DNA from: a virus
Virus record (IMG/VR): IMGVR_UViG_3300021376_000357
Location: 1 to 23,844 of that record
DNA length: 23,844 nt
Strand: one strand, 5' to 3'
The position numbers and the translations under genes are program-made. Positions within the stretch are counted from its first letter, which is position 1; every line of letters begins with the position of its first letter. Below are positions 3,769 through 23,704 of the stretch, in pieces. The notes under the pieces were generated by a model that made no database searches, was not told where the DNA came from, and saw only the letters and a list, made by a program, of their open reading frames with translations.

Positions 3769-4119
3769 TTAGATGCGCGAGATACAAATGGAAGCCGTGC
3801 CCTGCCTGGGGGAAGCAATGCGAGAAAAGCTTCCGTAAGACAAATCAAGGATGCGCCCGTGAGCATAGGGGCCCCTGTCGTTGATTGTCACCACCACTTT
3901 CTTTCCATTGTGACGGTTGACGATTTGCACTTTGGTGCCCATGGGAAGTGAGGGGTGGGCAGCCGTCATGGCATGGGCATTGAAGCGGGCGCCGCTGGCA
4001 GTGGTTTGACCGTGATAGCCGTCACCAATGCCATAATGGCTGGCTTCGCCGCACGACAAAACAGCCGCTTGAGCAGGAACGTTGCCAAGCAGCAGGAGGG
4101 GGATTAAGAATCGAAGCAT
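3769..4119 (-). CDS. rlpA: RlpA-like double-psi beta-barrel protein, secreted
   Basis: Secreted protein with a signal peptide (residues 1-18, LRFLIPLLLLGNVPAQA) and an RlpA/DPBB domain. Family hallmarks are ASHYG (26-30), YHGQTTASG (35-43), MTAAHPSLPMGT (51-62), VNRHNGK (67-73), INDRGPY (79-85) and GRILDLS (88-94). RlpA proteins are lytic transglycosylases acting on denuded peptidoglycan strands, and the Asp in NDRGP is conserved for that activity. At 116 residues it is just the DPBB domain with no SPOR domain. In a phage it could help release or entry, or alter the host wall. A small secreted protein follows in the same operon. The upstream region also encodes an opposing structured RNA, so promoters may overlap. 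Confidence 0.9.
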   Translation of the reverse strand: MLRFLIPLLLLGNVPAQAAVLSCGEASHYGIGDGYHGQTTASGARFNAHAMTAAHPSLPMGTKVQIVNRHNGKKVVVTINDRGPYAHGRILDLSYGSFSRIASPRQGTASICISRI

Positions 4120-4187
4120 TCATTTAGGGGAAATAGCTAGCGAGGCCGCCAACAGTCGCCTGCAGGCAGTTGCACTATTGTGGCACG

Positions 4188-4472
4188 TTTGTCAAGGGCG
4201 CTGACGAGGGCGTAGCAAATGCCGCAGAAGGTGCTATGCTTTCTGAAGTGGTTGGTCCTAGTGGCTTAATTGCTGCTCCTGTCCTTCGGGGCGGGCCGTA
4301 AGGGTGGACGCTGCCGATGGTGCGGGCGAGGCCGTATGGTCTTGCCAAGGGGCTCATGGTTCCCTGCGAGGCGCACCATCTCATGACGGTGAGCTTCGTT
4401 GCGAGGCCCGTTGTGAATAAGGCGGCATCGGAAGCCACTAAGAGAAAGGGGGCTTAGGCCCCCTTTCTTTTT
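4188..4472 (+). ncRNA. Candidate structured RNA with multi-helix fold and terminator
   Basis: No convincing gene lies in 4120-4502. This GC-richer stretch folds on the plus strand into consecutive and nested helices. They are: 4189-4194/4202-4207; CAGAAGG/CTTTCTG (4225-4231/4239-4245); a 9-bp outer stem TAGTGGCTT/AAGCCACTA (4259-4267/4432-4440); a UUCG-capped hairpin (4278-4295); and a 9-bp stem GATGGTGCG/CGCACCATC (4316-4324/4372-4380) enclosing two hairpins (4325-4346 and 4348-4365). A final helix (4386-4411) has a UGA bulge. A terminator follows at 4444-4472. Several pairs are G-U on the plus strand and would be A-C mismatches on the minus strand, so the fold is strand-specific and agrees with the terminator direction. 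It matches no RNA class I know. The 5' end is uncertain. Confidence 0.6.
4444..4472 (+). terminator. Strong rho-independent terminator of the structured RNA
   Basis: Perfect 10-bp stem GAAAGGGGGC/GCCCCCTTTC with loop TTAG, followed on the plus strand by TTTTT. The other direction lacks a good T run. No plus-strand protein gene precedes it, which is the main reason to look for an RNA upstream. Confidence 0.9.
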
Positions 4473-4500
4473 GCCTGGCCACTGTCGCACAGTGGCAGGC
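4473..4500. repeat. 11-bp hairpin just after the RNA terminator
   Basis: GCCT plus GCCACTG pairs with CAGTGGC plus AGGC around a TCGCA loop, with one bulged G at 4477. There is no T run, so it is not a terminator. It lies immediately upstream of the possible plus-strand gene at 4503 and could be an operator or an RNA structure affecting that gene. Confidence 0.5.
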
Positions 4501-4502
4501 TT

Positions 4503-4763
4503 GTGCAACAAGCTCTTATACAAAGTCAGCTAGGCTCAATACAGCATTGGCTGGATCTTATGGAAAAATTTCACAGCGCCAGCTTGGAAAAAAATTTGGA
4601 GTCACGCAACGCGCAATCTTCAATGTTTTACGATCCGCGAAATGAAGAAGACTATGACACCTTTGCATACGGCACTGAGCCCATCCCTGGCGACCATAGT
4701 TGGAAACATAAAAAAAGCCCTAGTGAGGGCTTAGATGGAAGTGATGAGGCGATACCGGCGTAA
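4503..4763 (+). CDS. Possible hypothetical protein (86 aa, or 67 aa from ATG)
   Basis: Uncertain gene. The frame opens at GTG 4503; an ATG at 4560 is an alternative. The sequence is protein-like, with an amphipathic first half and an acidic, aromatic middle (MFYDPRNEEDYDTFAYG). It is the only plus-strand candidate in an otherwise minus-strand block. Its 3' end runs through a minus-strand terminator (4709-4732) and overlaps the last 33 bases of an opposing small gene. A possible -10 (TATACA) sits at 4518-4523, fitting the ATG start. It could be real with antisense overlap, or simply an open frame. Confidence 0.45.
   Translation: MQQALIQSQLGSIQHWLDLMEKFHSASLEKNLESRNAQSSMFYDPRNEEDYDTFAYGTEPIPGDHSWKHKKSPSEGLDGSDEAIPA
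4709..4732 (-). terminator. Rho-independent terminator of the left small-gene operon
   Basis: Stem AAGCCCT/AGGGCTT with loop AGTG at 4715-4732, followed on the minus strand by seven T. It overlaps the TAA of the 49-residue gene at 4731-4880 and marks where the 5412-4731 operon ends. Confidence 0.88.
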
Positions 4764-6730: not shown

Positions 6731-7477
6731 TCAATAGTCGTCTTCATTAATTGTTTGTAAAGGCATGGTTTCAGGCCATACCTCCTGCTCTGTTTCAGGA
6801 TCAAAGCTGATAGTTTGAGCAGAAGCAGGGAGCGCATGCTCCCTGCGTTCTTCCGTGGCTTTGGCTTCTTTTTCTTTTTCAATGGTGGAAGAAAGGTCTT
6901 GCAGGAACTTTCTATAGCTTGTATCTTGCTGCTCAACGGGCTTGGCCTCATTAAGGCCAAGCAGCTTAGCCTGCTCCACGAGGCTGCTCTTGGCAACAGT
7001 CAGGAACGATGCATCACCAGCACTTTCTTCAATCTTGATGGTTTGCTTATCGTTGCCGTTGCCATCATCGTTGGTGATGATCGTGCGTCTACGCTTACTG
7101 GCTTCAAAGCTTTGCAAGGCCATCTCCTTAAGGTCCATTTGTTCCTTAAGCAGCCGTGCCCGATGCGTGTCCTGATTCTTTAAGATTTCTTCTGTGTAAA
7201 GCAGGCGATTAAATTTCCTATCACCATTGACAGTCTCCTTGCTGAGCTTCAAGACATTCGCAATCTGACGATTGCTCATGGATGCCGCAAGCAATTCTTG
7301 CACCATCCATCGCCTAAGGCCAAGCATTTCCTTGCTGTAGCCAGTAGATCCACCAGTTGATTTTGTATCACGAACAGCTTCAAACTGATGCTCAGAAATA
7401 CCAGCTTTTGACAAAGCTTTTAAAGCATATTCTTGCTCTTCTTCTGGCGTGCTAAATTCAACTTCGGGACGTGGCAT
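6731..7477 (-). CDS. HTH protein, possible small terminase subunit
   Basis: 248 residues. A helix-turn-helix is visible at about residues 60-90: ELLAASMSNRQIANVLKLSK followed by ETVNGDRKF, the pattern of a resolvase/sigma-like HTH. Long charged helices follow (residues 95-130) and then a disordered acidic C-terminus rich in Glu/Gln. N-terminal HTH plus central coiled-coil and flexible tail is the usual layout of phage small terminase subunits, which bind pac/cos DNA. No large terminase follows, so a regulator is equally possible. It belongs to the long minus-strand operon of small genes. Confidence 0.8.
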   Translation of the reverse strand: MPRPEVEFSTPEEEQEYALKALSKAGISEHQFEAVRDTKSTGGSTGYSKEMLGLRRWMVQELLAASMSNRQIANVLKLSKETVNGDRKFNRLLYTEEILKNQDTHRARLLKEQMDLKEMALQSFEASKRRRTIITNDDGNGNDKQTIKIEESAGDASFLTVAKSSLVEQAKLLGLNEAKPVEQQDTSYRKFLQDLSSTIEKEKEAKATEERREHALPASAQTISFDPETEQEVWPETMPLQTINEDDY

Positions 7478-8526: not shown

Positions 8527-10515
8527 CTAAAACCAAATATCATCTTCTTTTTCCTCACTAAACCATTCCTCTTCTTTATGCATTGAAGGAACAATGGAAT
8601 TAGCGGGAGCTGCAGGGCTATAGTCCCATGCGTGGTACAAACGAGTGCGTTCACCATTTGGCCCCACATTGAAGCTGCTGGCAATCAGCCCTTGACGGCG
8701 AGCTTGTTCGGCCAAGCGCCCAGCAAGGCTGGAATCCATGCCAGAGACAAACATGCCCAACTGTTTTCTATCGAAGCGTTCATGGCGATTGCTTTCAATC
8801 TTCTGAATAATCTTCTCCAGTTCTTCGCGGCCCCCGTTCACGGGGCCGTTATAGTACCAGCCATAAGTGGCAGGGTCGCGGACAATATAGTGTTTACCAG
8901 CTAGTCCGCTACGACTCTTGGTCCATTCAAAGACAAACTGACTCGTGTCGTAATTTTGATCTTGACGATACAGCTTGACCACTTCGCTCACATTGGCCTC
9001 AAAGCTAGAACTGTCGCGAATGCCACCGCTTTTATTTAAATGGTGGAGTATGACGATGCTGCATTCGTATTGATTGGCAATGTCACGCAGTTCGTAGATG
9101 CAATTGCCTGCATCACTTTTTATTAAGTCAACGTCCATTCCAGCCAAACAACTGGTAAGGCTATCAATCATTACCAATTGCGGGCGATTCTTCTTGATGT
9201 GGTCATGAAGCTGAGGAATGTTAACGAAACGAAAGCGTTCAATAAAACCAATGTCCCCCAAGTCCAGCAGGGGATGATCGTGGTAGCCAATGATTTGCAT
9301 TTTCTCTGCTGCGTCTACTGTCGGCTCATCACATTGAATAATGAGAGCTTTTCCTTTTTGGCAGCGGCGTTTGCTCCAGGGTGTGCCGGTGGCAACGTGC
9401 AATGCCCAGTTGTACAAAAGCGTTGATTTGCCGCTTCCAGGAGCCGCTGCAAGCAACATGACGCTGCTTTCGGGAAGGATGCCTGCAATGGTCCATTTGC
9501 GTGCATCTTCTGACATGGCAATGGTCTTAGCGTCCATCACCTCCAGTTCTTCACGGCCATGTACGCGGGCCTTTGCCTCTATTAATAGCTTCTCCACCTC
9601 ACTGGCTGTCATTTTGAGGTCGTGAGTGGAAAGCCATTCGCGGGCTTCAAAAGCAACTTTGGTGTCGTTGCCATAAAGCCCGATCATGCGTTCAAATGTA
9701 CCAATCACTTCTTCGTAGGACGGGCGGCCATCGCGGCCCTCATGCCTGCTCCTAGAAACAATAGAAGATAAACATAATGTTAAGTCGGCACCATCGTCCA
9801 ACCAGTCGCCAATGTCGTAACCACCATTTTGCGGCAAGCTCTCCCATTCAAAATTGTCAGGGTCTGCATATAACCATTGACATCCAGGATTGTCCCCCGC
9901 CACCTCTCGCATGAGCGCAACGCCAGGCTCGTCACGATCTGGACACAGGACAATCTCATTGTTACGAAATAATAAGCTGTAGTCTGCGTTACTACGGTAC
10001 TGACCGCTACCCCCGAGAAACGTAACGCTGGGTAGCCCTATTTCCCATAATTTATCGCAGCACAATTCGCCCTCCACGATAAAAATAGGAAGCTTATTTT
10101 CTTTTGAAAAAACTAAAGCTTCTTTATATCGGTAGGGAAGGATGGACTTGCGTATTTCATCGGTGATTGATTTACGCTTGGGGGATGAATGGGCGACAGT
10201 TGGGTAGTCTTGATGAATGCTTTTTTTACCATTGCTATCATCCCGCACCACCTGCAAAACGCTGTCGCCATCACGGTTTTGGTAGTTGAATGTATATTTC
10301 TGGAACGGCCTCATTGGCCGTTCCCAGCGTTGTAAGGGGGCTAACGCATTGCGAATTTCAGCACGATGCTTGGGACTGTCATCATTAAAACAATTGTAAG
10401 CGCCTGTGGTCTTGTTAATGGAGAAGTCATTGCCGCCGCAGGCGGGGCAAATAAATTTACCTGCATGCTCGCTCGGTTCTAGCTTGGCTAGGTGGTCAAG
10501 AATCGAAAACGCCAT
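8527..10515 (-). CDS. Primase-helicase fusion (zinc finger, TOPRIM, RecA-like ATPase)
   Basis: 662-residue replication protein. The N-terminus has a CHC2-like zinc region (CPACGG at 23-28, C42). The TOPRIM domain shows FIVEGE (145-150) and CPDRDEPG (191-198), the metal-binding acidic motifs of DnaG-type primases. The C-terminal half is a RepA/AAA_25 RecA-like ATPase: Walker A APGSGKST (358-365), Walker B LVMIDSL (447-453) and a HH pair (491-492). It should prime and unwind phage DNA, as T7 gp4 does, although its ATPase is of the RepA rather than the DnaB type. The C-terminus (560-662) may be a winged-helix-like region and ends acidic. It starts at the ATG at 10515 in the divergent intergenic region. 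Confidence 0.92.
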   Translation of the reverse strand: MAFSILDHLAKLEPSEHAGKFICPACGGNDFSINKTTGAYNCFNDDSPKHRAEIRNALAPLQRWERPMRPFQKYTFNYQNRDGDSVLQVVRDDSNGKKSIHQDYPTVAHSSPKRKSITDEIRKSILPYRYKEALVFSKENKLPIFIVEGELCCDKLWEIGLPSVTFLGGSGQYRSNADYSLLFRNNEIVLCPDRDEPGVALMREVAGDNPGCQWLYADPDNFEWESLPQNGGYDIGDWLDDGADLTLCLSSIVSRSRHEGRDGRPSYEEVIGTFERMIGLYGNDTKVAFEAREWLSTHDLKMTASEVEKLLIEAKARVHGREELEVMDAKTIAMSEDARKWTIAGILPESSVMLLAAAPGSGKSTLLYNWALHVATGTPWSKRRCQKGKALIIQCDEPTVDAAEKMQIIGYHDHPLLDLGDIGFIERFRFVNIPQLHDHIKKNRPQLVMIDSLTSCLAGMDVDLIKSDAGNCIYELRDIANQYECSIVILHHLNKSGGIRDSSSFEANVSEVVKLYRQDQNYDTSQFVFEWTKSRSGLAGKHYIVRDPATYGWYYNGPVNGGREELEKIIQKIESNRHERFDRKQLGMFVSGMDSSLAGRLAEQARRQGLIASSFNVGPNGERTRLYHAWDYSPAAPANSIVPSMHKEEEWFSEEKEDDIWF

Positions 10516-22822: not shown

Positions 22823-23704
22823 TCACAATTCAGGCATTTCATATTCTTTCGTGCTGTTGCAATAGTGTTTAAAAATAATTTCGCTTGTATTCCCAGCCCA
22901 AGACGCCACCTGCGGCACTGGAATGCCTTCTTCAATCCAACGACTAATGGCAGTGTGACGACAGTCGTAGGGACGGTACAAATGTGTAATTAATGCAGCC
23001 TGATGAAGGGGCTGTAATTTTTTACGGAAATAGCTTTGAAAAGCAAGCCTGTCCCAGGGAAAAATAAAACGATTATCCTGTGGTAATTGCTTAAGGATTT
23101 CTTGACACTTACTGTTTAATGGCACCCAGCGGCGCTTGTTGGTTTTGGTACTGTCCTTGAGTCCGTGCGTCAGCGTGTAGTTTTGATGTACAAGAATTTT
23201 GTTGTCTTTGATGTCATCCCAAAACAGTGCTCGCACTTCCCCTGTTCGCATTCCTGTCTGAAGCATAAATTCCGCATACCAAGCCCAGTTGATGTTTTTG
23301 TAACTGAGCTTTGCTTCCAATGCAGCAAGCACAAGGCCCACTTCGTTGCGTGGAATAACAATAACCTCCTCATCCCGCTGAGGTGCTTTGGGCATTTTGA
23401 AGCTTGCCAGGGGATTCTTGTCAATGAAAGCAACATCCTCCTGTGCTGCCCAGCGGTACATTGCTTTGGTATACATGGCTACACGCCTGGAAGTAAGCAC
23501 TGGCTTTTCCCCCAAAATCCAAATCATGATCTTGCGTGCGTCTTCAAAATCTTGGATGGGGCAGCGCCCCAGCCATTTAGTGACTTGACGGTAGTCGCTG
23601 GTAAGACTTGTGGGACAGAGGGAAATGCTACGTTCGTCAACAAATGACTGCCACACACCAGAAAGTGTGGACGCAGCAAGGTCTGTGCGATAAGATAAGC
23701 CCAT
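22823..23704 (-). CDS. int: Tyrosine recombinase integrase
   Basis: Site-specific recombinase of 293 residues. The core-binding domain spans about 1-110. The catalytic domain has TGMRTGEVRAL (150-160, Arg153), the Lys region TKTNKRRWVPL (186-196), YRPYDCRHT (243-251, Arg249 with Tyr246 where the first His of HxxR is usual), ASWAGNTSE (268-276, Asn272 in the usual H/W position), and the nucleophile Tyr281 in FKHYC. The YRPYD.RHT...VGNS-type variant is typical of cyanobacterial integrases from memory. It is transcribed leftward with no stop-free extension beyond its ATG. It marks a temperate element. Confidence 0.93.
   Translation of the reverse strand: MGLSYRTDLAASTLSGVWQSFVDERSISLCPTSLTSDYRQVTKWLGRCPIQDFEDARKIMIWILGEKPVLTSRRVAMYTKAMYRWAAQEDVAFIDKNPLASFKMPKAPQRDEEVIVIPRNEVGLVLAALEAKLSYKNINWAWYAEFMLQTGMRTGEVRALFWDDIKDNKILVHQNYTLTHGLKDSTKTNKRRWVPLNSKCQEILKQLPQDNRFIFPWDRLAFQSYFRKKLQPLHQAALITHLYRPYDCRHTAISRWIEEGIPVPQVASWAGNTSEIIFKHYCNSTKEYEMPEL

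Follow-up and report, generated by a model that had tools for sequence, protein, structure and literature searches.

A structured noncoding RNA gene of S-CBS4-like cyanophages and its possible action through protein binding

The locus and its transcription signals

The window, i.e., the whole stretch of DNA that was analyzed, is a 23,844-base IMG/VR virus record, in which the RNA sits between an rlpA-like gene of the DPBB type (3769-4119, minus strand; PF03330, E 1.7e-23) and a small plus-strand ORF (4503-4763). The former is its divergent neighbor, and the latter follows the terminator, carries the YDPRNEEDYDTF..TEPIPGD module and is possibly linked to the RNA; both lie outside it. A short module, YDPRNEEDYDTFEYGTEPIPGDTTW, was also seen to recur in small proteins encoded next to the RNA, in varied protein contexts and on either strand.

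A perfect intrinsic terminator occupies 4440-4472 on the plus strand, consisting of a 14-bp stem (4440-4453/4458-4471) followed by U, and the initial annotation was correct in stating that no plus-strand gene precedes it. By a lenient scan, a terminator was detected in all 82 distinct homologues, with stem sequences that vary from clade to clade. At the other end, an extended -10 box, TGC-TATGCT (4232-4240, plus strand; hexamer 4235-4240), is conserved directly before P1, the closing helix of the RNA, and is a promoter as judged by its sequence. In 77 of the 82 distinct homologues, 2-5 bases separate the end of the best -10-like box from the modelled core, and the box is TGNTANNNT or close to it in about 75 of them; no -35 consensus was found. 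From the positions of the -10 box and the terminator, the transcript is predicted to start near 4247 and to end at 4472 on the plus strand, a length of about 225 nt. Two 5' hairpins (about 4188-4240), initially counted as parts of the RNA, would then lie upstream of the transcript, the -10 box preceding P1; by this reading, they are promoter DNA.

Just 3' of the terminator, at 4477-4514, the window has two adjacent short hairpins, CCACTGTCGCACAGTGG and GCTTGTGCAACAAGC, the inner 9-mers of which are nearly mutual reverse complements. These hairpins were also found in the group of locus L020 and in loci L019 and L025, and in the last two CCGC..GCGG replaces CCAC..GTGG, which is a compensatory change. 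Farther along, a conserved neighbor protein, referred to here as cl6 (6731-7477; gp086 of phage S-CBS4), has a match to phrog_645 (E 9.4e-15), which bears the name 'Rnase E'; cl6 contains a helix-turn-helix-like stretch (SNRQIANVLKLSKETV), and thus the name looks doubtful. By eye, the translated ORF at 22823-23704 resembles a tyrosine recombinase (integrase), a hint that the phage could be temperate.

Architecture and covariation of the RNA

On the plus strand, region 4188-4472 folded at -142.7 kcal/mol, with a z of -5.6 against shuffled sequence, compared to -2.8 for the minus strand; the trimmed region 4247-4472 gave a plus-strand z of -5.9. It is to be noted that P1 was recovered when exactly 4247-4472 was folded, but was absent from the fold of the longer region. 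The GC content of the RNA is 60% versus 48-50% in both flanks, in agreement with the earlier remark that the stretch is GC-richer than its surroundings.

In the overall fold, all on the plus strand, P1 closes two domains. One is made up of P2 and the hairpins A, B and C; in the other, P6 leads to P7, P8 and P9, plus P10. P1 itself (4248-4253/4433-4438) is paired in 99.8% of cells, with double changes in 6/6 pairs. The initial annotation had proposed a 9-bp long-range stem (4259-4267/4432-4440), which is only 68% paired in homologues; the conserved closing helix is P1. The P2 helix (4255-4258/4306-4309) is 100% paired, with double changes in three of its four pairs, and its variants include GUCC/GGAC, GCUU/AAGC, GCUC/GAGC and GCCC/GGGC. 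Enclosed by it are hairpin A (4260-4277; 95% paired, double changes in 6/6 pairs), in which the loop is UUAANN, or a GAAA tetraloop in some clades; hairpin B (4278-4295; 95% paired, double changes in 7/7 pairs), which varies in length among homologues and is the previously noted UUCG-capped hairpin of the window; and hairpin C (4296-4303), a nearly invariant CC-GNRA-GG element (97% conserved). A natural short form that lacks hairpins A and B was seen at positions 8940-9090 (minus strand) of locus L231, where hairpin C is retained and promoter and terminator signals are present.

The second domain starts with P6 (4310-4314/4422-4426; 99% paired, double changes in 5/5 pairs) and continues with P7 (4316-4324/4372-4380; 98% paired, double changes in 9/9 pairs). 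The latter is a 9-bp stem that had been described with two inner hairpins, and these also proved to be real. Within it are P8 (4325-4327/4344-4346 and 4331-4333/4338-4340; 98-99.6% paired, double changes in 6/6 pairs) and P9 (4348-4351/4362-4365; 98% paired), the loop of which has a conserved CAU (4355-4357) and an overall conservation of 89-95%. A reading in which the P9 loop contains an AUG was considered and rejected, as the AUG is missing in loci L037 and L098. The P10 hairpin (4381-4416), drawn from the window fold, is of clade-variable length; it contains the bulged helix that had been placed near 4386-4411, which is thus present, but more variable, two modelled base pairs being 86% paired. 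Finally, the junction strand AUCGGA (4427-4432) is unpaired and 97-100% conserved.

Amid the changing helices, the constant bases are therefore AUCGGA, hairpin C with its GNRA loop, G4254, U4259, U4305 and the CAU of the P9 loop. Since many of the homologues were retrieved with search patterns that included AUCGGARG, the apparent conservation there is somewhat inflated; nonetheless, loci fetched via rlpA or cl6 share the AUCGGA core, with few exceptions, e.g., L231.

The helices were evaluated on two alignments. The first, A2, was made from 49 sequences with MAFFT alone, based on sequence only and with no fitting to structure; 94% of structure cells were paired and 42 of the 52 pairs showed double changes, values that none of the shuffles attained. 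Its covariation score was 0.540, compared to 0.209 in shuffles (reached in 0/500), and structures with slid partners scored no higher than 0.148, although the tested structure was the RNAalifold consensus of A2 and was thus favored over the slid versions. As the structure was derived from A2 itself, the shuffles and the larger set also matter. This set consisted of the 82 distinct sequences aligned to R1, the covariance model built from the 49 sequences; 97.6% of cells were paired and 48 of the 51 pairs had double changes, in an alignment that leans to the structure by construction. The best 24 column pairs by mutual information were all pairs of the structure (24/24), and no pseudoknots were found among the top covarying columns of the core. 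In A2, G-U cells (331) far outnumbered A-C cells (34), which fixes the plus strand and bears out the strand-specific G-U pairs noted at first.

The original description of a strand-specific structured RNA that looked undescribed and had a terminator of its own is upheld, and the support for a structured RNA at 4247-4472 (plus strand) is stronger than had been claimed. The abundant compensatory changes run contrary to the situation that would have spoken against it, i.e., homologues without such changes. Both a covarying secondary structure and, as sequence signals, its own promoter and terminator mark the RNA as stand-alone, and we are highly confident that S-CBS4-like cyanophages have a stand-alone noncoding RNA gene, represented in the window by 4247-4472.

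Homologues and distribution

By blastn, an unannotated counterpart with the same neighboring genes was found in the cultured Synechococcus phage S-CBS4, where it occupies the minus strand of HQ698895 at around 64,536-64,730, with the terminator in addition. An nhmmer search among rlpA relatives in IMG/VR yielded 44 loci with the element, including S-CBS4, on the strand opposite to rlpA where examined, and additional homologues were obtained by pattern scans with a conserved stretch and by a neighbor-gene search with the cl6 protein. The R1 model gave full-length matches across the homologue loci, which include many IMG/VR contigs; in the window, the match spans 4244-4444 at 161 bits, the window being one of the sequences from which R1 was built. 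In 19 records of 66-80 kb, there is exactly one RNA copy apiece.

As an independent neighbor gene, cl6 allowed a separate view of the distribution. The RNA was present in 55 of the 78 cl6 loci, and 22 of the remaining 23 stop no more than 3.6 kb from the gene. The other one (L275; IMGVR_UViG_3300027151_000002) appears chimeric, as it is identical to locus L274 up to base 10123 and unrelated beyond. The cl6 proteins of loci with the RNA share 42-75% identity with the cl6 protein of locus L142, and thus the RNA persists despite their divergence. No match to the RNA was found at L050-L084, where the rlpA relatives have about 54-62% identity. Locus L225 is also without the RNA; there, the contig breaks off a short way past a small ORF like those found downstream of the RNA.

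One exact-pattern scan of genome contigs gave four matches and no clear host copy. Of these, L183 scores as the RNA, L184 reached only 14.7 bits, and the other two gave no match. The L183 contig (NYTN01000042.1; 20,518 bases) is filed under a Rhodobiaceae MAG, but has the same size and score as the IMG/VR contig 2786546945_000009 (L142); it therefore appears to be the same phage contig and is probably mis-binned.

Possible function and relation to known RNAs

We propose that transcription of the RNA would start at its own extended -10 promoter, run opposite to the neighboring early operons and stop at its own terminator, so that the RNA ends would be paired in P1, as in other stable RNAs; these steps are read from the DNA signals. 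The folded RNA would then act in trans, most likely by binding a host or phage protein, as a ribonucleoprotein or a decoy. Candidate contacts to the protein are the elements that do not vary along with the helices, namely the AUCGGA strand of the junction, hairpin C (GNRA) and the P9 loop with its CAU; however, a ligand site, a catalytic core or tertiary contacts would explain the conserved unpaired bases just as well. Taken as a whole, the statement of a stand-alone RNA gene that acts in trans, with protein binding as a folded molecule, is one that we consider reasonably probable, whereas for the mechanism itself, i.e., trans action by binding protein, we infer roughly even chances. More tentatively, this may be a new class of phage RNA, kept as one copy per genome throughout a divergent group of phages, which during infection of picocyanobacteria commandeers or inhibits a host protein, or else assembles into a phage ribonucleoprotein that is essential.

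Among other functions, a ribozyme, a pRNA-like packaging RNA or an RNA serving to prime or mark replication would fit the compact fold and the invariant junction, as well as the location in the genome half with the replication genes. The S-CBS4 copy is also no more than 2 kb from the peak of the cumulative GC skew, a signal that is confounded by gene orientation. Against such a role, no Rfam family is matched and the terminase large-subunit gene of S-CBS4 is about 10 kb off, across the record ends, making it unlikely in our judgment.

An antisense RNA that base-pairs with phage or host mRNAs, e.g., that of the rlpA operon, is consistent with the adjoining, divergent position of rlpA in 65 loci and with the conserved unpaired stretches, which could pair with targets. 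However, the transcript does not overlap rlpA, and the architecture is compact and multi-helical with few long unpaired stretches. Moreover, the RNA is kept at loci without rlpA among the neighbors: 21 loci show none within the sequence examined, although some are near a contig end (e.g., L139), so that the true absences are fewer, and in L122, L142 and L174 other genes occupy the place of rlpA while the RNA stays. The last finding runs counter to the initial suggestion of an antisense regulator of the rlpA-like operon, and we regard antisense action in general as rather improbable.

Alternatively, the RNA could be a cis-acting leader (riboswitch or attenuator), the terminator of which controls the small downstream gene. 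The terminator indeed directly follows P1, and in 54 of the 74 loci the small ORF module lies downstream on the same strand, leaving room for a cis role in those. A riboswitch or attenuator would call for a co-directional gene in all members; however, about 20 loci are without a same-strand ORF, and ten have the module only on the opposite strand. Furthermore, the terminator stems are clade-variable and no conserved pairing partner was seen in the core, so that no antiterminator is evident; nor were extra covarying pairs for alternative pairing seen within the core, the part that the alignment covered. We regard a leader as distinctly improbable. Persistence of the RNA without rlpA and without a same-strand downstream gene argues against both an rlpA-specific regulator and a general riboswitch.

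Lastly, long minus-strand frames overlap the RNA in the window (4175-4438, 4266-4523), but a coding stretch or DNA-level element in place of an RNA gene has next to no probability, since the core lengths of the homologues (151-205 nt) represent all three residues modulo 3, and are thus not in frame and incompatible with codon-level conservation, and since the covariation, with its abundant double changes and strand-specific G-U pairs, contradicts it.

Returning to the proposed protein-binding RNA, its family combines very strong covariation with occurrence in phages of the ecologically important picocyanobacteria, and its presence in the cultured S-CBS4, which grows on Synechococcus CB0101, makes expression, deletion and pull-down experiments directly possible. 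At gathering thresholds, Rfam 15 (4227 models) gave zero matches in the window and in seven divergent homologue loci; an E-value search of 4100-4560 returned only weak matches far below gathering scores, mostly on the terminator, and ARAGORN found no tRNA or tmRNA gene in the window. No description of the RNA was found in the available text of open-access papers on S-CBS4 or cyanophage noncoding RNAs, a scope outside which most subscription journals fall. The RNA family is therefore new with respect to Rfam 15, although its biochemical function may be of a known sort.

The absence of an Rfam match separates this RNA from all of the following. 6S RNA and other stable bacterial RNAs have paired ends and their own promoter and terminator; the present RNA is alike in its paired ends and its promoter and terminator signals, but is multi-branched, whereas 6S RNA is a long bulged hairpin. 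The phi29 pRNA is a phage-encoded structural RNA that acts in trans; here, the S-CBS4 copy does not adjoin the terminase genes. GOLLD, ROOL and OLE are ornate stand-alone RNAs, some of them phage-associated, and are much larger; the RNA described here is likewise stand-alone, but smaller. GOLLD, ROOL and OLE are reported to be homo-oligomeric (PMC12286853). Structured RNAs of cyanophages include manA, wcaG and PhotoRC-II (RF01745, RF01761, RF01717), the first two described in potential 5' UTRs and the third with photosystem genes (PMC2864571). The present RNA, too, is a cyanophage-borne structured RNA, but one with promoter-like and terminator signals of its own.
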